IMG/VR virus record: IMGVR_UViG_3300002835_001143
Span: 1 to 23,117 of that record
DNA from: a virus
Direction: 5' to 3' (one strand)
Length of the DNA: 23,117 nt
The position numbers and the translations under genes are program-made. Positions 1,649 to 10,302 of this stretch are shown in pieces. Under the pieces are notes generated by a model, which saw only the letters and a program-made list of their open reading frames with translations, was not told the DNA's origin and did not search any database. Every line of letters starts with the position of its first letter. Positions within the stretch are counted from its first letter, which is position 1.

Positions 1649-2056
1649 TTATAGTAAGAATAACAGGGTCATAGCGACAATACCAATACTACCACCAGTA
1701 GCTAACCCACTAAAATACTTTTTTCGTTTTTCCGATTTCAATACTTTGATTTCAGATTCTTTTATAGCAATAATGTTATCCTTTTCAATAATAATTGATT
1801 CGGTATTTTTTACTATAGTATTTAGATTTACAATTTGTGAATCTTTCAATTCAATTTTCTTCTCAAGTAAACTAACTTTATCCTTTACAAGGATTAGTTC
1901 AGCATCACACAATTCATATTGTGCTTTAATTACCAACGCTTTTTGTAAAGTGTGTCTTGGTACAGCTATTAAAGTAGAATCACTTGAATGCGTCTGTGAA
2001 AGCAGAGGTGAGCTCGTCATCAGACATAGAATCAAACTTAGCAACGTCTTTTTCAT
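1649..2056 (-). CDS. Putative spanin-like or other lysis protein, signal peptide and C-terminal TM
   Basis: This 135-residue protein starts inside the end of the preceding gene, in another frame, with 77 bases of overlap. Residues 1-20 look like a signal peptide ending LLS|Q; a Q after the cleavage site is common in Bacteroidota. Residues about 55-112 are a charged heptad-like coiled coil. KSEKRKK at 107-113 precedes a hydrophobic C-terminal segment (116-135) that could be a membrane anchor. C11 lies in the hydrophobic core but is not in a good lipobox. Overlapping frames and coiled coils in both partners recall Rz/Rz1-type spanin pairs. A C-terminal TM is not expected for a classical outer-membrane spanin lipoprotein and is closer to a unimolecular spanin plan. 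The function is inferred from architecture and position only. It lies 9 bases upstream of the terminase gene. Confidence 0.6.
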   Translation of the reverse strand: MKKTLLSLILCLMTSSPLLSQTHSSDSTLIAVPRHTLQKALVIKAQYELCDAELILVKDKVSLLEKKIELKDSQIVNLNTIVKNTESIIIEKDNIIAIKESEIKVLKSEKRKKYFSGLATGGSIGIVAMTLLFLL

Positions 2057-2321
2057 GTTGTTTCTTTAATTTTTTAATTTGAGAATCTTTTGCATCAAGT
2101 TGTGAATCCACTTTTGCAATCTCTTTTTCAATTTCAGAGTTTACAACCTTTAGAGAATCCACACTACCTTGTAATCTTTCGATTTCTTTTTTAGAAGTTT
2201 GTTCTTGTTCCTTTAACATTTTCATGTACTCCTTTTTATAAGAGTTTCCCATGAACAAGTTTTGAACTATTAATAGCCCAACTGCTACAATGATTACAAT
2301 GTGTACTGATTTCAGTTTCAT
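1980..2321 (-). CDS. Putative inner-membrane spanin (Rz-like)
   Basis: This 113-residue protein has a short basic start, one membrane-spanning segment at about residues 6-24 (HIVIIVAVGLLIVQNLFMG), then a long Lys/Glu-rich coiled coil to about residue 95 and an acidic tail (SMSDDELTSAF). One N-terminal anchor plus a periplasmic coiled coil is the standard plan of an i-spanin, which bridges to an outer-membrane partner in the last step of lysis. Its ATG overlaps the stop of the upstream gene as TAATG, which implies translational coupling. Its last 25 or so codons encode the signal peptide of the next gene in another frame. No sequence-level homology to lambda Rz is claimed. Confidence 0.6.
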   Translation of the reverse strand: MKLKSVHIVIIVAVGLLIVQNLFMGNSYKKEYMKMLKEQEQTSKKEIERLQGSVDSLKVVNSEIEKEIAKVDSQLDAKDSQIKKLKKQHEKDVAKFDSMSDDELTSAFTDAFK

Positions 2322-2649: not shown

Positions 2650-3597
2650 TTAATTAAGTAAATCGGTTAATAACTTATCAAATGGTTCTTTTAACTTATC
2701 GTAATAAGAACTACCTTCAACAAGGTATCTCCCACCATACAACATATCACGAGTTGATATGTGTAGTTCGTGTGTTTTATCATTCTGGTATTGTTTAGCT
2801 CCCCATAAATGATATAACGTATTGTTTAATTCTTCAGTAGCATCGTCATGACCCAAATCCATGTCATATGAATAAAATCCTTCGGATGAATACAAAACTT
2901 TACATACCGCTTGTGTTTTGATTGGTACTCCAACTATATTAGACCAATAACTAGCAAGTGCTGCAAGAAACCACTGTTCCATCATGATTTGAGCTGATGA
3001 TAATGGGTGCATCCTATGTGAATTTTCAGTAGCATATACCATATCACCACTTGAATCTAAAACATAGTCAAAGTACCTACTAACAAAGTCCATTTTGAAA
3101 GATTCGTTGAACATACCAAGTACAGCACAATTCATTGGCTGTGTATTTCTAAATGAGGTTGTCATATCCTCATCCCAAACAAACCCATCGGGCCCTTTGA
3201 TATCAAAAATGTTAGGATACGAAGCGGTGGTCTCTCTATGTAGATACAAAACATCACATCCAATGTAAGATGTTAATGGTTTGTGTAACATTAAGTCGGT
3301 ATCAAATATTATAAATGGAGATTGTAACTTTGACATAGCCCAAATCTTTGGAGATGCCCAAAAATTGTCAGATATTCTATCGTATGGATAGTCGTCAAAT
3401 ATGTTCGTGATAACCTCATCATATAATGAGGTAATGTTCCACTTATCATAGAACTCTTTTGTTTTTACATCTGTTATTAAACACAAAGGAACGTCTGGGT
3501 TGACATTCCTATGGTTTATACAAGAATACATATGAGTTATTAACTCAAATGTTTGGGGGTCTCTATTACGAATTATGTAGACGTGGTAAGCCTTCAT
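2650..3597 (-). CDS. GT-A-like glycosyltransferase
   Basis: This 315-residue protein probably transfers a sugar from a nucleotide-sugar donor. An N-terminal Rossmann-like stretch is followed by FIIFDTDLMLHKPL with a DxD motif (D99 and D101 from the chosen ATG), the metal and nucleotide-sugar site of GT-A enzymes. Aromatic segments NFWASPKIWAMSK before it and MMEQWFLAA after it are typical of the fold. There is no signal peptide or membrane segment, so it should act in the cytoplasm. The acceptor is unknown: phage DNA, a virion protein or a host surface sugar. A TTG at 3600 directly precedes the ATG at 3597; I take the ATG. No clear Shine-Dalgarno is seen. It sits between the multidomain 825-residue gene and the small coiled-coil/lysis genes. 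I think it resembles glycosyltransferase-like families in Bacteroidota, but this is from memory. Confidence 0.75.
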   Translation of the reverse strand: MKAYHVYIIRNRDPQTFELITHMYSCINHRNVNPDVPLCLITDVKTKEFYDKWNITSLYDEVITNIFDDYPYDRISDNFWASPKIWAMSKLQSPFIIFDTDLMLHKPLTSYIGCDVLYLHRETTASYPNIFDIKGPDGFVWDEDMTTSFRNTQPMNCAVLGMFNESFKMDFVSRYFDYVLDSSGDMVYATENSHRMHPLSSAQIMMEQWFLAALASYWSNIVGVPIKTQAVCKVLYSSEGFYSYDMDLGHDDATEELNNTLYHLWGAKQYQNDKTHELHISTRDMLYGGRYLVEGSSYYDKLKEPFDKLLTDLLN

Positions 3598-3628
3598 CAA
3601 AACTTGTTTATAATAAGTATTGTTTTAA

Positions 3629-3647: not shown

Positions 3648-6125
3648 TTACCATTTTTTACAAGACCAATAACGAGCTTTCCATCTTGGCCCAGGACTAT
3701 CACAATTGTGTCTGGCTCTGAATGATGCTCTTGCTTCGGGATTGTCTTTACGGATTCTCATCGTACCACCCTTAGCATCACCACCTTGTCCAAAGTTTAC
3801 TTTAACAACATTACCTTTGTCGTTCTTAACATATACTTTGAATTTCTTAACATCACCTTGCATGATTTTACCAAGCTTTACTTTACGACCTTGGTATTCA
3901 GCCTCACCTAATTGCTTTTTGTATTTTTTAATATCATCACGAACTTCTTCAAAGTCCGACCACATTCCGTTTTTGATAAAATATACGGCGCCTTTAAAAT
4001 CTTTGAATCCCAAATATTTAACTAAATTCTTATCAGAGTATAATTGCTTTAGAACTTCTTTAACACCAGCAGACGCAAGATTCATTTCTTCTATTTTTGA
4101 TTCAAAAACAGGAACCTGAATACCAAATGATTTTAATTTGGCTTGTAATGATTGTTGCTCTTCTTGGTCACCAAATTTAATGTAAGACAACACTTCTTTG
4201 AATGACTTGAATCCGAGTTTAGGTAACACCTCTTTATTATTAAAAATCGTAGTCAATAATTCTTTGACACCGGCCGATTTGAATTTCAATTCTCTTAACC
4301 CAGCTCGTTCTGATGTCATATATGATTCAAGGTACTCTTTAAAATCTTCAATCTCTTCGTAATTTTCAACATCATACTCATCAACCACTTCTTCCTCTTC
4401 TTCTTTTACAAAAGATTTAGCTTGTGGGTTTGAATATAATTTACCAATCTCAATTCCGTTTTGTTCCATGAATGATTTGATAGCATGGTATTCTTCTTTG
4501 ATGATAGTTTTTAATACGTTGAGTTTTTTGTTCTCATCTAATTTTTCTTCTTCGGTTTCTTCATCAAGTTTTTTAACAGGATACATTTTTCCGTTGAATT
4601 CGAATTCAGTCAAACCTTCTTGACGAGCTTTGAACAAAGCGCCAGTAAAAGCATTACCTTCTACCATTTGCTTTTTATTCATCATACTTTCCATGATACC
4701 AACAGCAATATCACCAACCAAAAAGTCAGGTTTAGTTGCGTATTTTTTGTTCACAATAGCAACTCTATTACCACTCTTATCTTGAACTACATAAATCGGC
4801 ATTGGTGAAGTAGCAAAGATGTATCTCATGCCGGTTTTCTTTAATTCAGTACCAACACTCATAAATGAAGAAGCAGCTTCAACAGCCGACTTGATTTTTT
4901 CCATATCATTTGATGATATACCTTCATTTACATTATCTTGATAAAGAACTTGAATATCTTTAATGTCACCTGTGAATGGTCCGTTCAATGTATTAATGGT
5001 TACTTTGTTACCACTAATTTTCATTACCATGCCGGTTTTGTTTTTTGATTTGAAATGTACAAAATCACCAATCTCAAAATCACCAACGTTTGCTTCAGTT
5101 AATGAACTATCACTAACAATACCTTCATAATTAGCCATGGTTAATACATCATTTTCTTTTGACATTTTAATCACATTCTGACTAACGTTGTGTAAGTCCA
5201 TATCACTTTTTGCATCTTCACGAGAATATTCTAATAAACGAATAAAAAGCGGAACATCCATTGAGATGGTGTCTATACTATCATTAGCTTCTGAAATTCC
5301 TTGTTGTTTGTTTTTCATATCAGCAAAGGCTTGTGCTTCTTCTTTGGTAGCAAACCCCTTTACTCTAACCTCACCTTCCCAAACAGCCCACGGCTCATTT
5401 GGATTCTTACAAGGTCTTACTACATATTTGTCATTTGGGTCACCGGTATGTGATTCATTTATCGACTCTTCAATACCTTTTTTAGAACGGATTTTGTATT
5501 TCTTGTAAAGGTAATCCATTGACTTGATGTTTTGTTTTAACTGCCATGCGTGGTCATCATTTACTCTTTTTAAACGAACCATTAATTGAATGTCAGAATC
5601 AGACGCTACTTCAGCAAATTTAGGACCAATTACCCAAGATTGTTTACCTCTATAAAGGTCAACATTAATATCAGCCTCGTTTACGGATTCTGATTTAGTT
5701 TTCCAAGTACCACCTTTTTCTTTGTACCACTTTGATGCAAATGCGTTAGCGTATGCTGATGGATATACATCGTATTTAGCCTTTGCAGCAGCAACGGCTC
5801 TATCCCAAAGAGCAGGGTTGTTGGGTTCGTTTTCTTCGTTAATCGATTCCTTTACACAATTTGGAACTTCTTTACCATTTTTCATTTTCATTCCTATTTG
5901 TTTGTATCCATCCCAACACGGGCTGTCTTCCTTGATAGATTCAAATCTAAACTTACCTTTAGGCGCTTCTTGTTTAAAATATTTTAAAGCAAACTCTGAT
6001 TTAAGGTTTGGAGCATATTGGCCGATTTCTTTTCCGTTCTTTAAAACGATATGAGTTAACATACCACCCCAACGGAAAACTTTTGCAAGTTCATAATCAC
6101 CAATTTTAGCAACAACTTTAGCCAT
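3648..6125 (-). CDS. Large multidomain protein, candidate processed head-packaged polyprotein
   Basis: This 825-residue protein is a string of small domains joined by short linkers. I see, in order: an N-terminal 60-residue unit; a Cys-containing WDGYKQIGMKMKNGK unit (70-91); a module with NNPALWDRA and YPSAYANAFASKWYKEKGG (102-140), like the uncharacterised DUF5872 family; two further small units (151-220 and 225-275); a helical unit (285-335); an SH3/KOW-like unit (345-395); an acidic linker (520-600); a duplicated unit (617-668 and 685-736); and a basic C-terminal domain with NPEARASFRARHNCDSPG and a terminal RYWSCKKW. Boundaries often carry (I/L/V)xE sites, for example INE at 95-97 and 222-224, ISE at 277-279, LTE at 342-344 and LGE at 739-741, followed by A, S, G or an acidic residue. 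That pattern suggests a substrate of a gp21-like prohead protease. Start: ATG with AAGG (6132-6135) six bases upstream. Function unproven. Confidence 0.75.
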   Translation of the reverse strand: MAKVVAKIGDYELAKVFRWGGMLTHIVLKNGKEIGQYAPNLKSEFALKYFKQEAPKGKFRFESIKEDSPCWDGYKQIGMKMKNGKEVPNCVKESINEENEPNNPALWDRAVAAAKAKYDVYPSAYANAFASKWYKEKGGTWKTKSESVNEADINVDLYRGKQSWVIGPKFAEVASDSDIQLMVRLKRVNDDHAWQLKQNIKSMDYLYKKYKIRSKKGIEESINESHTGDPNDKYVVRPCKNPNEPWAVWEGEVRVKGFATKEEAQAFADMKNKQQGISEANDSIDTISMDVPLFIRLLEYSREDAKSDMDLHNVSQNVIKMSKENDVLTMANYEGIVSDSSLTEANVGDFEIGDFVHFKSKNKTGMVMKISGNKVTINTLNGPFTGDIKDIQVLYQDNVNEGISSNDMEKIKSAVEAASSFMSVGTELKKTGMRYIFATSPMPIYVVQDKSGNRVAIVNKKYATKPDFLVGDIAVGIMESMMNKKQMVEGNAFTGALFKARQEGLTEFEFNGKMYPVKKLDEETEEEKLDENKKLNVLKTIIKEEYHAIKSFMEQNGIEIGKLYSNPQAKSFVKEEEEEVVDEYDVENYEEIEDFKEYLESYMTSERAGLRELKFKSAGVKELLTTIFNNKEVLPKLGFKSFKEVLSYIKFGDQEEQQSLQAKLKSFGIQVPVFESKIEEMNLASAGVKEVLKQLYSDKNLVKYLGFKDFKGAVYFIKNGMWSDFEEVRDDIKKYKKQLGEAEYQGRKVKLGKIMQGDVKKFKVYVKNDKGNVVKVNFGQGGDAKGGTMRIRKDNPEARASFRARHNCDSPGPRWKARYWSCKKW

Positions 6126-6133
6126 TTTAAACC

Positions 6134-6604
6134 TTATGAAATATATACGTTTAACTCGTATGCGCTACGCATTCCATACACTTGGATTGCCAAAGCTTTA
6201 CGTTGTGGTTTTCCACCTTTTGTAAGAGAAATTATAAATCTATTGGTTTTACCTTCAGAGGGTTTTTTTGGACCTAATCCAATTTTTGTTGAAGTTTCTT
6301 CTTCATCAAAATCATAACCAGCTTTTTTAGCATATTCTAATGCGGTTTGGATTGCTGAAGTATATGTTTTATGGTAAACTTGATATGCCGCTTCTTTGAT
6401 TACGGATTCATTTCTCTTATTAGAAGTGTACATACCTTTTAACCATGCAATAGCATCTTTGGTTAAGTCAAATTGTGGAAATTCTTTTTTGAATTCTTTT
6501 ATGAATTCTTGAAACGTTTCCGCTTCTTGAACCATAATGTCAATTTCGCTCATCGATGACTCATTGACTTTTTTAGATTCGGTTATAAGTGATTTTAATC
6601 TCAT
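6134..6604 (-). CDS. Conserved hypothetical protein with capsid-targeting-like N-terminus
   Basis: This 156-residue protein begins MRLKSLITE|S, close to T4 capsid-targeting sequences, which are short N-terminal peptides ending in (L/I)xE. Further candidate sites are VNE|S at 13-15 and IKE|A at 69-71. After the last one follows a compact C-terminal domain (72-156) with YHKTYTSAIQTALEYAKK, GPKKPSEGKTNRF and a terminal YELNVYIS. I believe similar C-termini occur in other marine T4-like phages, from memory only. The N-terminal third is helical and acidic. The start is well supported by GAGGGAG seven bases upstream. The gene lies 8 bases upstream of the 825-residue gene and is likely co-translated with it. 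It could be an internal head protein; its biochemical role is unknown. Confidence 0.75.
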   Translation of the reverse strand: MRLKSLITESKKVNESSMSEIDIMVQEAETFQEFIKEFKKEFPQFDLTKDAIAWLKGMYTSNKRNESVIKEAAYQVYHKTYTSAIQTALEYAKKAGYDFDEEETSTKIGLGPKKPSEGKTNRFIISLTKGGKPQRKALAIQVYGMRSAYELNVYIS

Positions 6605-7302: not shown

Positions 7303-10302
7303 TTATTCGTAGAAAAGACCAAGTATTTGATTTAACGGAGCGAATGTTCCCGTTAACTTATAAGTTTGACCCTTGTATACAAATACAATACCCTCGTTAG
7401 GTACAATTTTGTCTTTACCGCCAATAGCAGCAAGTCTTTCCAATTCCAATCTCAATTTAGAAATCTTTTTAGGGTCACCTAACTTTTGAACGTCTTTGAT
7501 TGTTTGGTCAAGTCGGTCTTTCATATTACGAACTGCCGTGTCTGGATTTACAGTCAATACTGATGACATAAATGATAATACTTCAGCACCAACCCCCAAG
7601 AATATATCTTCAAATGGTCTAATATTATCTTTTGCAATTTTAGCGTGGTCATTTTTGTCCACACCTTGAGCCCAAGCTAATACTTTAGGGTCGGTGATGT
7701 TTTTGTTGTCTAATCTAAACGACTTATCATAGAACGCCCATCTCTTAACAAGACCCATCTTGGTTTTATTGTCAATTGTAGATGGTGATTTCGTATCAAC
7801 GTAATTTTCCCACCATCTTTGATGGTATTCAGCAACACCATCTGTGTCTTTTAAATTAAATTGCTTTTGAAGTTTACCTAACTGACCATCAAACTTTGAT
7901 TTCAATGAAGATAACTTTTGTGACTTTGGTAATTGTTGAATTGGTGGACCTTGAATAGTATATTGTGATTGTACATCAGCATTTACTTGTTTAATCATAC
8001 CGGCAAGAATCTTTGCATCACTTTGTTCAGCTCCAATAGCAACACCATCCTCATTATATTCCGTTGTATTGTGGAATACCAATAACGGCTGACCGTATGG
8101 GATTACGTTTACGGATGTTGGCCAGATTACTTCAAGGTTCATAAATTTTGCACCTTGTTTGAATATCTTGTCACGTTGAGCTTTTGATAAACTTTTGATA
8201 GCTGACGTTAGGTCTTTCATTGCAAAGTTGTAAGCATCCGTGAGACCACCACGACCTTGGAACTTACTCGCAACACCACTAATATCAAGTGCTTTTTCAC
8301 CACGATTGGCAAGATGACCTTTATTTCTAGCAGCAATTAATCCACCTTTATCATCTCTCCACGAAATGGCAAGTGCTTGTCCATCGGTCTTTTCTCTGGC
8401 AAGTTCTAACTCACCATTTAGAGCACCATGGATGATTTGTTTTAGGTCACCAAAGGTAAGATTCATTTCAGTATCAAATGGATGAGCCATGTGTCCATAA
8501 GCACCACCTTCCATCAACATACCCTCATCGAGTTTATCAATAATTCTAAACTTCAGTAAGGGCTTTCCGTTGATTGTAATATCTCCCTTTTCATTTTTAC
8601 CTATAGACTTAACTACTATTCTTTTGTTTTTAAACTTACCACCAAGTACAGTATCACCAACACTAATTGGTACGTTTATATCTTCATCCAATAAAGTTTC
8701 TTTTAATACGTTTTCGTTTGTATTGATAATATAATCTAATGTAGCATCTTTACCTTTTAAGTCTAGCCAATATTTTGATTTTATAAATTGAGAATATAAA
8801 GTTTTCATATTTGAAACGGCTTCAACTTCCCAAGGTAGTTTCATATATTCAGCAGGATTGGATTTCATTAACTTACCATAATCTTTTGCAGTTATATATT
8901 CCTTACCTTTCCACAATATTGCAGTGTAATCTTTATTTGGTAATAATTCTTTTTTACAAACCTGTTTGACATGAGTTAATTCATGTATCATTGTTTGAAT
9001 TATTCTCTGATATGATTGATTAGGATTAAAGTTTAAATAAAATTTATTACCATCTACTGATGTGGAACTCAAAGATATATCACCTATCAATCCAACTTTT
9101 TCTTTTTTCTTTACTATAATTTTCGCGTTAAAACCATATTTGTCCATCATAAAAGCAACAACAGATTTAACCATTAAAGTTTCATGTTGTTTCAATTTCA
9201 TTGATGTGCCAAATAAGTCTTCATCTAAAAATTTCATGAACGAATTTCCCAAAGAATAAGCTGTGGTATGGATATTTTCTGATAGCGGTAAGTGGCCCAT
9301 CATATACTCTATGATTTCATATCCAAGATTAATGGCGTGTTCTTTTTTTAAGTCTTGAACATCTAACTCCTTTCTACCTTGTTTAGCGGTCGTGAAGTCA
9401 TCACTTACAGGTGGAATTTCCAAATCAGTATTATTACGAATATTTCGTTTGGATGAGTATTGGTAATAATCAGATGACCCCTTTGCATCTGGTGAGACAA
9501 TCACATCAGCAACCGGAAAATGCATTTGAACATAACCACCATTCACAAACCACACATCATCTTTTTGACCAGGATTCTTCGTTCCAAGTTTACGAGTTTT
9601 TCCCGGTAATACAAACATAGTATCAGGTTCACCAGCATCAGCGCCATATTCACTACCTTCGAGTATTGAGTTTACATTATATCTTTTGAAGAACTCTTCC
9701 ATTACTGATTCTACTTTAATAAGTCGAGTAGTAATCAGATTATAAATTTTTGGGTCGAACTTTGGATATGCTTTTTGGAATCCAGCTTTTCTTTGAGATT
9801 CGTCTGAAGCTGATAACCAATCACGAACATCAGTACCACTTATAGCATTTGGTTGTTTTGGAGATACATAAACATAACCATGTTCTTTATATCCAAATTC
9901 AGGTTTACCATCATACTTTTTAAAGTATTTACCACCCAAACGAGCTTCATCCTTTTCACCAACTACAGTAATAAAAGCCGTTGAAGTTTCATCGAATTTA
10001 GAAATAACTTCAGTAGGAGCATATGGGTTTTTTACTTGTACAATTTGTGAAGATGGTATCTTAAACATCTTCATCATTATGTCTCTTTTTTCTTTGAAGT
10101 TAAATGGGTGTCTTGGCCCACCTTGTTGGTTTGAAGTTCCGATAAATACGTTTTCTTTACCAAACTTTTTTACAAGATGTGAATATGTAGCGTAATGACC
10201 ATTATGAAATGGTTGGAATCTGCCAGCATATACAACAACTTGTCTTTTGATATTGCTTTCAACAATAACCGACTTGACCCATTCTTTAATTAAATTTCCC
10301 AT
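7303..10302 (-). CDS. Multi-enzyme protein: HxGH nucleotidyltransferase, zincin-like region, KxDG ligase-like domain
   Basis: The 999-residue protein has distinct parts. Residues 1-15 (ending VIVE|S) resemble a capsid-targeting peptide. Residues 20-195 are an adenylyl/cytidylyltransferase of the HxGH type (GRFQPFHNGH, H33 and H36; ISGTDVR at 154-160), close in style to NMN adenylyltransferases. Residues 216-535 include HELTH at 440-444 with WEVEA downstream (E492, E494), a zincin metalloprotease signature. Residues 541-590 look like a small SH3/KOW unit. Residues 599-999 fit the covalent nucleotidyltransferase superfamily of DNA/RNA ligases and capping enzymes: EKTDG with K638, a possible motif III LEV at 723-725, EGIVF at 970-974 and K982 in YKLTG. 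Boundaries carry ILE|G (213-215), LDE|D (538-540) and LME|G (596-598). Substrates are unknown; NAD or nucleic-acid end chemistry is plausible. The ATG start follows the upstream stop by 17 bases, without a clear Shine-Dalgarno. Confidence 0.85.
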   Translation of the reverse strand: MGNLIKEWVKSVIVESNIKRQVVVYAGRFQPFHNGHYATYSHLVKKFGKENVFIGTSNQQGGPRHPFNFKEKRDIMMKMFKIPSSQIVQVKNPYAPTEVISKFDETSTAFITVVGEKDEARLGGKYFKKYDGKPEFGYKEHGYVYVSPKQPNAISGTDVRDWLSASDESQRKAGFQKAYPKFDPKIYNLITTRLIKVESVMEEFFKRYNVNSILEGSEYGADAGEPDTMFVLPGKTRKLGTKNPGQKDDVWFVNGGYVQMHFPVADVIVSPDAKGSSDYYQYSSKRNIRNNTDLEIPPVSDDFTTAKQGRKELDVQDLKKEHAINLGYEIIEYMMGHLPLSENIHTTAYSLGNSFMKFLDEDLFGTSMKLKQHETLMVKSVVAFMMDKYGFNAKIIVKKKEKVGLIGDISLSSTSVDGNKFYLNFNPNQSYQRIIQTMIHELTHVKQVCKKELLPNKDYTAILWKGKEYITAKDYGKLMKSNPAEYMKLPWEVEAVSNMKTLYSQFIKSKYWLDLKGKDATLDYIINTNENVLKETLLDEDINVPISVGDTVLGGKFKNKRIVVKSIGKNEKGDITINGKPLLKFRIIDKLDEGMLMEGGAYGHMAHPFDTEMNLTFGDLKQIIHGALNGELELAREKTDGQALAISWRDDKGGLIAARNKGHLANRGEKALDISGVASKFQGRGGLTDAYNFAMKDLTSAIKSLSKAQRDKIFKQGAKFMNLEVIWPTSVNVIPYGQPLLVFHNTTEYNEDGVAIGAEQSDAKILAGMIKQVNADVQSQYTIQGPPIQQLPKSQKLSSLKSKFDGQLGKLQKQFNLKDTDGVAEYHQRWWENYVDTKSPSTIDNKTKMGLVKRWAFYDKSFRLDNKNITDPKVLAWAQGVDKNDHAKIAKDNIRPFEDIFLGVGAEVLSFMSSVLTVNPDTAVRNMKDRLDQTIKDVQKLGDPKKISKLRLELERLAAIGGKDKIVPNEGIVFVYKGQTYKLTGTFAPLNQILGLFYE

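Follow-up and report, generated by a model that had tools for sequence, protein, structure and literature searches.

Why should a single viral reading frame carry three enzyme-like domains, and what becomes of such a chain? The question is raised by the window, a DNA stretch of 23,117 nucleotides (IMG/VR virus record IMGVR_UViG_3300002835_001143, positions 1 to 23,117), which encodes on its minus strand an open reading frame (ORF) of 999 amino acids (aa). A sequence-only reading had listed nucleotidyltransferase, zincin and ligase-like motifs in this ORF. A position check found all of them in that order in one chain: FHNGH starts at residue 32, ISGTDVR at 154, HELTH at 440, WEVEA at 491, EKTDG at 637 (with K638), EGIVF at 970 and KLTG at 982. 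As superfamily assignments the three domain readings stand; the further idea of one chain with three functions has to be modified, for the chain would probably be cut up in the prohead and serve as precursor of separate proteins. We regard the ORF as a probable T4-type internal-head precursor, i.e., a cargo polyprotein that would be packaged into the head and cleaved there by the prohead protease. Module architecture, motif placement, a gp21-family protease and a gp23 with a conserved E/A site were read from the sequences; cleavage, encapsidation, injection and enzyme activities are predicted from them. The parts of the ORF are listed below, a slash marking a predicted cut.

7303..10302, minus strand: 999-aa ORF, proposed capsid-cargo polyprotein precursor
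10255..10302, minus strand: capsid-targeting-like N-terminus MGNLIKEWVKSVIVE/S, residues 1-16, predicted cut after E15
9661..10254, minus strand: HxGH (HIGH superfamily) nucleotidyltransferase, residues 17-214, by Pfam PF01467
9655..9666, minus strand: predicted prohead-protease site ILE/G (E215), at breakpoint cluster 219 (range 214-238, n=21)
9220..9657, minus strand: segment of residues 216-361, parts of it in common with relatives without the window's zincin, with the extra motif E342
9217..9228, minus strand: predicted site LDE/D (E361), start of the zincin module, at breakpoint cluster 363 (n=6)
8683..9219, minus strand: zincin metallopeptidase-like module, residues 362-540, by invariant motifs and fold model
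8680..8691, minus strand: predicted site LDE/D (E540), at breakpoint cluster 535 (n=13)
8524..8682, minus strand: conserved module of about 55 residues (VGDTVLGGKFKNK..), with matches in other phages
8506..8532, minus strand: tandem predicted sites LDE/G (E593) and LME/G (E598), from 25 dereplicated contexts
7306..8508, minus strand: covalent-nucleotidyltransferase (RNA-ligase-like) domain, residues 599-999, by motifs and model

The domain limits proposed earlier (16-215, 216-540, 599-999) nearly coincide with the predicted cleavage points 15, 215, 540 and 598.

An identical (100 %) copy of the gene sits in the 186,631-base record G001 (locus L002). A tblastn search of a phage collection matched 49 records, none of which reached 80 % query coverage, and a scan of viral contigs found relatives encoded in 249 stretches, the best 80 of the 249 being kept as loci. 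Matches starting at or before residue 20 and ending at or after residue 990, in an ORF not open at its start, were counted as full-length; this rule gave 56 ORFs in the 80 loci and the window locus, 42 of them distinct. Homology among the relatives extends from residue 1 to roughly 195-215 and again over roughly 591-998. The middle, here everything between residue 195 and the start of the ligase domain, measures 166 to 1405 residues, and the 42 middles form 10 clusters. From these alignments the ends (nucleotidyltransferase and ligase-like domain) appear constant and the middle appears to be swapped between viruses. Annotation of one representative per cluster with Pfam, gathering scores respected, assigned a CCA-type PolyA_pol with HD to two of the ten (L037, L049), HD alone to one (L047) and DUF5661 to one (L073); three (L057, L008, L076) had sub-threshold matches only and three (L026, L036, L055) no Pfam match. 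NCBIfam, applied to four of the ten, matched the CCA modules in L037 and L049 to CCA tRNA nucleotidyltransferase or PcnB (about 1e-52), under the equivalog cut-offs. CCA-adding enzyme and HD cargo are flanked by the same [ILVM]xE junction motif. The 55-residue module recurs with 71.7-76.4 % identity in two uncultured huge-phage records and in Pelagibacter phage HTVC008M, and forms a stand-alone 61-residue frame in LR756502. A copy of the window's gene in locus L007:1-2581, otherwise 100 % identical, is without residues 597-668 or so and shifts frame there, by assembly error or real deletion.

The boundaries of these modules carry a recurrent motif. According to the accessible part of PMC9026906, L/I-X-E is the motif behind which T4 gp21 cleaves, and ten N-terminal residues of IPIII are enough for targeting. 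T4 IPII and IPIII start with MKTYQEFIAE/A; residues 12-16 of the window's ORF read VIVE/S, the end of a short N-terminal propeptide of the L/I-x-E form. Of 33 distinct N-terminal tags, 32 contained an [ILVM]xE with its E past position 8, against 21.1+-2.6 after shuffling (maximum 28 in 1000 shuffles); in this comparison the tags are homologous and hence not independent, and the position of the E was required because M..LIKEW would otherwise count through its IKE. Within the precursor [ILVM]xE[SAGDN] occurs at E15, 215, 342, 361, 540, 593 and 598, all but 342 between domains. Among 10 representatives, 39 of 81 clusters of homology breakpoints lay near this motif (11.1+-3.0 expected). After removal of the two constant junctions the internal breakpoints still gave 18/58 against 7.3+-2.5 (P<=0.0003), and the controls xD (5/58), xK (12/58), x[QN] (1/58) and the reversed motif (10/58) were not enriched in this internal set. 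At the last junction a tandem [LIV]xE/[GS][LI][LI]xE/GG was kept in 25 dissimilar contexts: E(-1) and I/L(-3) in 25/25, ILVM(-4) in 24/25, G/S(-5) and E(-6) in 21/25 each, behind a stretch whose columns have entropies of 2.8-3.9 bits. These contexts call for caution: they were chosen from 45 distinct ones by requiring an exact GGAYGHM and less than 50 % identity over -30..-6, so that the GG and the upstream diversity arise by construction; the conserved E(-6) is apparent despite the dissimilarity filter. Six of eight distant members (Mel-JY01, L108, L109, L188, L189, L190, L192, L193; the truncated L191 and the close relative L187 are left out of the count) have [ILVM]xE directly before GG. 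Microcystis phage Mel-JY01, with a 639-aa version made up of nucleotidyltransferase and ligase, reads IIAE/GG there. L188, by reading, has its modules in another order: a targeting-like start, then the 55-residue module, the CCA-like module, the nucleotidyltransferase and the ligase, with LLIE/GG retained.

A protease of the gp21 family accompanies the gene. An S77 protease and a Gp23 were detected in five of six related records, in G001 with 8.0e-35 and 1.5e-78, respectively, and E65/A of T4 gp23 aligns with [LV]xE/A in 5/5 capsid proteins of related phages. The modules also occur singly behind targeting-like starts. Among the 31 zincin frames listed, three were fused or long, leaving 28 stand-alone zincins; a targeting-like start was seen in 8 of these, including all 7 close ones. 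At the point matching E361 stand-alone zincins begin with MI[RK]L[KR]xI[LM][NS]E/DLFG (L121, L143, L144, L148 and L139, the last being the same gene as L115); L149 and L151 have this stretch without ATG, while the distant L152 starts with MKTFQEMAVQE/D. The zincin of Tenacibaculum phage pT24 begins MKTILEYFDPILTDMVFE/S. In one record a zincin-less precursor relative (L018) occurs together with a zincin in a frame of its own (L143). As a separate module the ligase-like domain is found behind MKFLKSYEEFLNENLILE/GG in LR756500 and behind MKSLIQYISE..PILE/GG in a 410-kb contig that we read as a huge phage. A strict T4-IPIII-like start pattern, fitted by T4 IPII and IPIII and not by IPI, was found in 16/27 ORFs of the 20-kb stretch around this ligase-like gene, compared with 2/52 in T4 parts and 33/146 in seven further stretches sampled from this contig; in the window's phage, the tags of which are differently shaped, it fitted 0/209. 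The same 20-kb stretch carries an S77 protease and a Gp23. The nucleotidyltransferase of this contig is a separate gene with an internal MMTLKEYIFEA, and a related 400-kb contig has a nucleotidyltransferase-ligase fusion with HMSLRDYVFEH..VYVME/GG in between. Taking the sampled loci L204-L211 of the 410-kb contig (G011:C82) together, 49/173 ORFs fit the strict pattern, a large paralogous family MKKLNQFITEKFRLSKDN among them; if the contig is a huge phage, its arsenal of internal proteins is apparently very large. A 252-aa ORF at L099:4668-5426 (G001 104668-105426, minus strand), starting with MKLKNLILE/GMYD.. and containing HEIEH and KEVDA, is a further targeting-like zincin candidate.

The domains themselves were assigned at superfamily level. 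The ligase-like domain has KxDG, ARN[KQG], N[LI]EVI, EG[IL]VF and KLTG, each in 42/42 distinct full-length relatives, and in domain numbering E39, K40, D42, G43, E126, E372, G373 and K384 are invariant among 35 sequences; in the usual numbering these are motifs I (KxDG), III, IV and V. K638 is proposed as the nucleophile. In the relative at locus L069:10001-13493 this motif is interrupted by a split intein, inserted exactly between K and T (EK/TDG, the slash here marking the insertion), in the order N-part, 244-aa ORF, C-part; the intein profiles TIGR01445 and TIGR01443 scored 35.6 bits (cut-off 24.5) and 19.7 bits (cut-off 15.6). Inteins usually sit at active sites. With Rfam the split gene gave a single match, far under gathering. 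An AlphaFold2 (AF2) model of the domain reached a mean confidence (pLDDT) of 83.3 and a template-modelling score (pTM) of 0.67. In a comparison with 349 chains by VIA-align the top 11 rows were RNA or tRNA ligases with low Z of 5.3-3.3; assuming that the aligned ranges start ungapped, K638 lies opposite K99 (5tt6), K170 (5cou) and K92 (8uch), residues named in the titles of these entries. A profile search against solved structures gave weak, unrelated-looking matches, the best to the 40S protein eS6 (E 0.015). For the zincin, HExxHxxQ and WExEA were invariant in all 24 aligned zincins, the window's included. Its AF2 model (pLDDT 83.5, pTM 0.83) retrieved with VIA-align mostly zinc metallopeptidases (Z <= 7.3) and YbeY-type proteins too (Z <= 7.0), and the profile search was again weak and unrelated-looking (best E 0.062, CTF19). 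The fold matches of both models are supportive, not proof. Invariant motifs and weak-to-moderate fold matches together bear out, at superfamily level, the covalent-nucleotidyltransferase reading of the last domain as RNA-ligase-like and the zinc metalloprotease reading of the middle one.

The first domain matched Pfam PF01467 (CTP_transf_like) with 28.2 bits against a gathering score of 21 (E 2.4e-06); of the 42 distinct full-length relatives all have HxGH, and 33 have [IVL]SGTx[VI]R. It had been called a nucleotidyltransferase of NMN/cytidylyl type, of which the HIGH superfamily stands through Pfam and the role in nicotinamide mononucleotide (NMN) or nicotinamide adenine dinucleotide (NAD) metabolism is left without support. 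The NadM equivalog profile gave 36.1 bits against a cut-off of 397, in a match spanning just some 60-70 residues, and a NadV-type nicotinate phosphoribosyltransferase exceeded its cut-off in none of ten related records (one sub-threshold match; the records may be fragments). NAD salvage by this domain was downgraded for that reason, and a role in NAD synthesis is disfavoured by these profile results because the NadM match is short and far under its cut-off and no NadV passed. In the distant members L082:11243-13162, L188 and L189 HxGH is altered (PMGIHH, PFGPHH), with SGTxxR retained.

Several observations weigh against a cleaved head precursor. [LI]xE is short and common: [ILVM]xE[SAG] occurs 194 times in the ORFs of the 186-kb record against 162 expected, and rank 4 of motif enrichment there is a GroEL-like ORF. 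In the precursor the count was 7 against 4.0 in shuffled sequences (P 0.09) for [SAGDN] and 4 against 2.4 (P 0.21) for [SAG]; the precursor alone is not significantly enriched, and the case therefore rests on motif position. The wide breakpoint cluster 290-332 ends 10 residues short of E342, and no motif is found within 12 residues of clusters 194 and 518. The control [DEKRSTN]xE[SAGDN] was mildly enriched internally (16/58 vs 9.8, P 0.02); in the full set this control (27/81 vs 14.3) and the reversed motif (23/81 vs 13.2) were enriched, which the tandem sites may explain, yet the caution stands. The junction of L189 reads LLLM/GG without E, and L109 has no E/GG. Not every member is tagged: twenty of the 28 stand-alone zincins (L153, L158, L163 and others), all distant, show no targeting-like start, L166 among them being cut at its start, and in two 400-kb contigs the nucleotidyltransferase ORFs are without an N-terminal targeting-like sequence. 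Foldseek returned nothing significant for the zincin model and 0 matches at E<=0.001 for the ligase-like model, where the best match was a non-ligase (E 0.28) and T4 Rnl2 came second (E 1.0).

The strongest competitor, which we still consider unlikely, is a polyvalent protein (Iyer et al. 2017), which would be packaged and injected as a single multidomain chain, or else be freed by the metallopeptidase that it contains and not by the prohead protease. Zincin-bearing multidomain phage effectors have been described, with release by the embedded peptidase proposed, and like the present chain they are large, modular, combine peptidase and nucleic-acid domains and are predicted to be delivered (accessible part of PMC5512222). 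The window's chain has a zincin, and 10 of the 42 distinct full-length relatives have HExxH in the middle. However, [ILVM]xE before GGAYGHM is kept in all 32 relatives without HExxH there, which makes release by an own peptidase less probable; the motif fits gp21 specificity and the capsid-protein site, and the modules are found alone behind targeting-like N-termini as well. In the part of PMC5512222 at hand release is credited to embedded peptidases, a prohead protease appears in one reference title only, and no ligase-like core with T4-like sites is described. Less probable again is an unpackaged intracellular multidomain enzyme of RNA or NAD metabolism, the motifs of which would be flexible linkers. 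The shortness of the motif and replication- or recombination-like neighbours in the window (partly our own reading) would agree with such an enzyme, whereas the conserved targeting-like N-terminus, the protease and Gp23 adjoining in the 410-kb contig, the breakpoint statistics and the NadV partner over cut-off in 0/10 records would not. A prohead core or scaffold component with inactive enzyme-like domains is very improbable: scaffold proteins are cut by gp21 at many sites too (accessible part of PMC9026906) and a 467-aa core candidate is equally motif-enriched, but the catalytic motifs are invariant amid diverging sequence and the intein of L069 sits inside the ligase nucleophile motif.

The proposed internal-head precursor has close counterparts in known phages. 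T4 IPI, IPII, IPIII and Alt, internal head proteins that bear a targeting sequence, are cut by gp21 and are injected, share the short N-terminus ending in [LI]xE before the cut, a gp21-family protease and a gp23, and Alt also the enzyme cargo; unlike the precursor, which joins enzymes with internal predicted sites and an exchangeable middle, they are single modules with terminal propeptides (PMC9026906, accessible part). Head proteins of phiKZ and SPN3US offer a parallel, being cut by the prohead protease behind a short motif whose last residue is E, and many are ejected; in contrast, 13 of 14 mapped SPN3US sites remove N-terminal propeptides and one removes the C-terminus of the protease itself, and the accessible parts of PMC10052503 and PMC5694885 describe no multi-enzyme release from one chain. 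In the accessible parts of the literature on prohead proteases and internal proteins (also PMC13282480, PMC12363816), subscription journals being mostly uncovered, such a precursor was not described; the literature search returned no paper on Microcystis phage Mel-JY01. We classify the precursor as a variant of the T4 internal-protein kind.

In the proposed mechanism the short N-terminus would target the precursor to the prohead core, where the capsid-maturation protease of the gp21 family would cut after [LIVM]xE at the module boundaries. Products would be a HIGH nucleotidyltransferase, a zincin (plus the 55-residue module) and an RNA-ligase-like enzyme, which would remain in the head beside the DNA and reach the cell together with it on infection; the constant ends would frame the middle as an exchangeable cargo slot. 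The 'delivered toolkit' suspected from the sequence fits this well, apart from NAD as its target, which the NadM and NadV results leave unsupported. The function is most likely early take-over or counter-defence, in which the zincin may act on a target of host defence or of take-over. A possible function is to repair RNA or tRNA that host nucleases have cut; we put this forward tentatively because the ligase-like domain is constant and the CCA-adding/HD cargo is recurrent. Phage RNA-repair sets (T4 Rnl1, ligases of jumbo phages) are similar in ligase-like and CCA-adding enzymes and different in that they are phage-encoded enzymes, not head-precursor modules, in the accessible parts of PMC7824862 and PMC9503650. 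On a broader view, for which the balance is nearly even and tips slightly to the negative, T4-like phages would fuse exchangeable enzymes behind one targeting sequence, cut them in the head and inject an RNA-repair and protease kit ahead of all phage gene expression, in a series that starts from separate tagged genes (huge phages), passes through fusions of two modules and ends with chains as long as 1999 residues.

The surroundings of the gene are mixed. On one side it adjoins a repetitive 1468-aa ORF, probably structural, followed by a 1055-aa ORF, which by eye and with no search behind it we take to be an SbcCD/gp46-47-like nuclease, and beyond it a Toprim/primase-like ORF with Pfam scores under gathering; on the opposite side follow several ORFs and then the terminase. 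Calling this a late structural block is right in part only. Motif enrichment in the 186-kb record was highest in two ORFs of the window and in the 467-aa head-core candidate near the protease.

6134..6604, minus strand: 156-aa ORF with capsid-targeting-like start MRLKSLITE/S, 4 motifs against 0.7 expected
3648..6125, minus strand: 825-aa ORF with 12 candidate cleavage motifs against 3.35 expected, rank 1 of 232 ORFs

The 825-aa ORF is possibly a second cargo or core polyprotein; it has short stretches in common with Pelagibacter, Roseobacter, Flavobacterium and other phages. Small overlapping ORFs lie at 1649-2321 (minus strand), a 113-aa one matching Rz-like spanin families (2.6e-05), and an ORF at 2650-3600 (minus strand) contains DUF6734 with a score over gathering. 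Pfam matches to Methyltrans_Mon_2nd and DUF6782 were under gathering and discarded; the window has no Rfam match and no tRNA. The T4 late promoter TATAAATA was not found within 70 bases upstream of the 999-aa ORF; the 186-kb record has 29 copies, within that distance upstream of just 2/232 ORFs. Another motif, [GA]ATATTTAT, has 19 copies on both strands of G001 and lies within 70 bases upstream of 15/232 ORFs, including the 999-aa ORF (4 bases before its ATG). A third, TTCGTANNTTTG, occurs in 13 copies in G001, upstream of 9 ORFs, and looks like a Bacteroidota promoter; this early-looking motif, and not [GA]ATATTTAT, precedes the 252-aa zincin candidate of L099.

If the precursor is what we propose, many late proteins of T4-like and huge phages that now lack annotation could be recognised as delivered effectors by the cut motif between their modules. 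Delivered RNA-repair enzymes would act at once against nuclease-based defences, and the precursor would represent a natural multi-cargo packaging system: one targeting sequence, several proteins, one protease.

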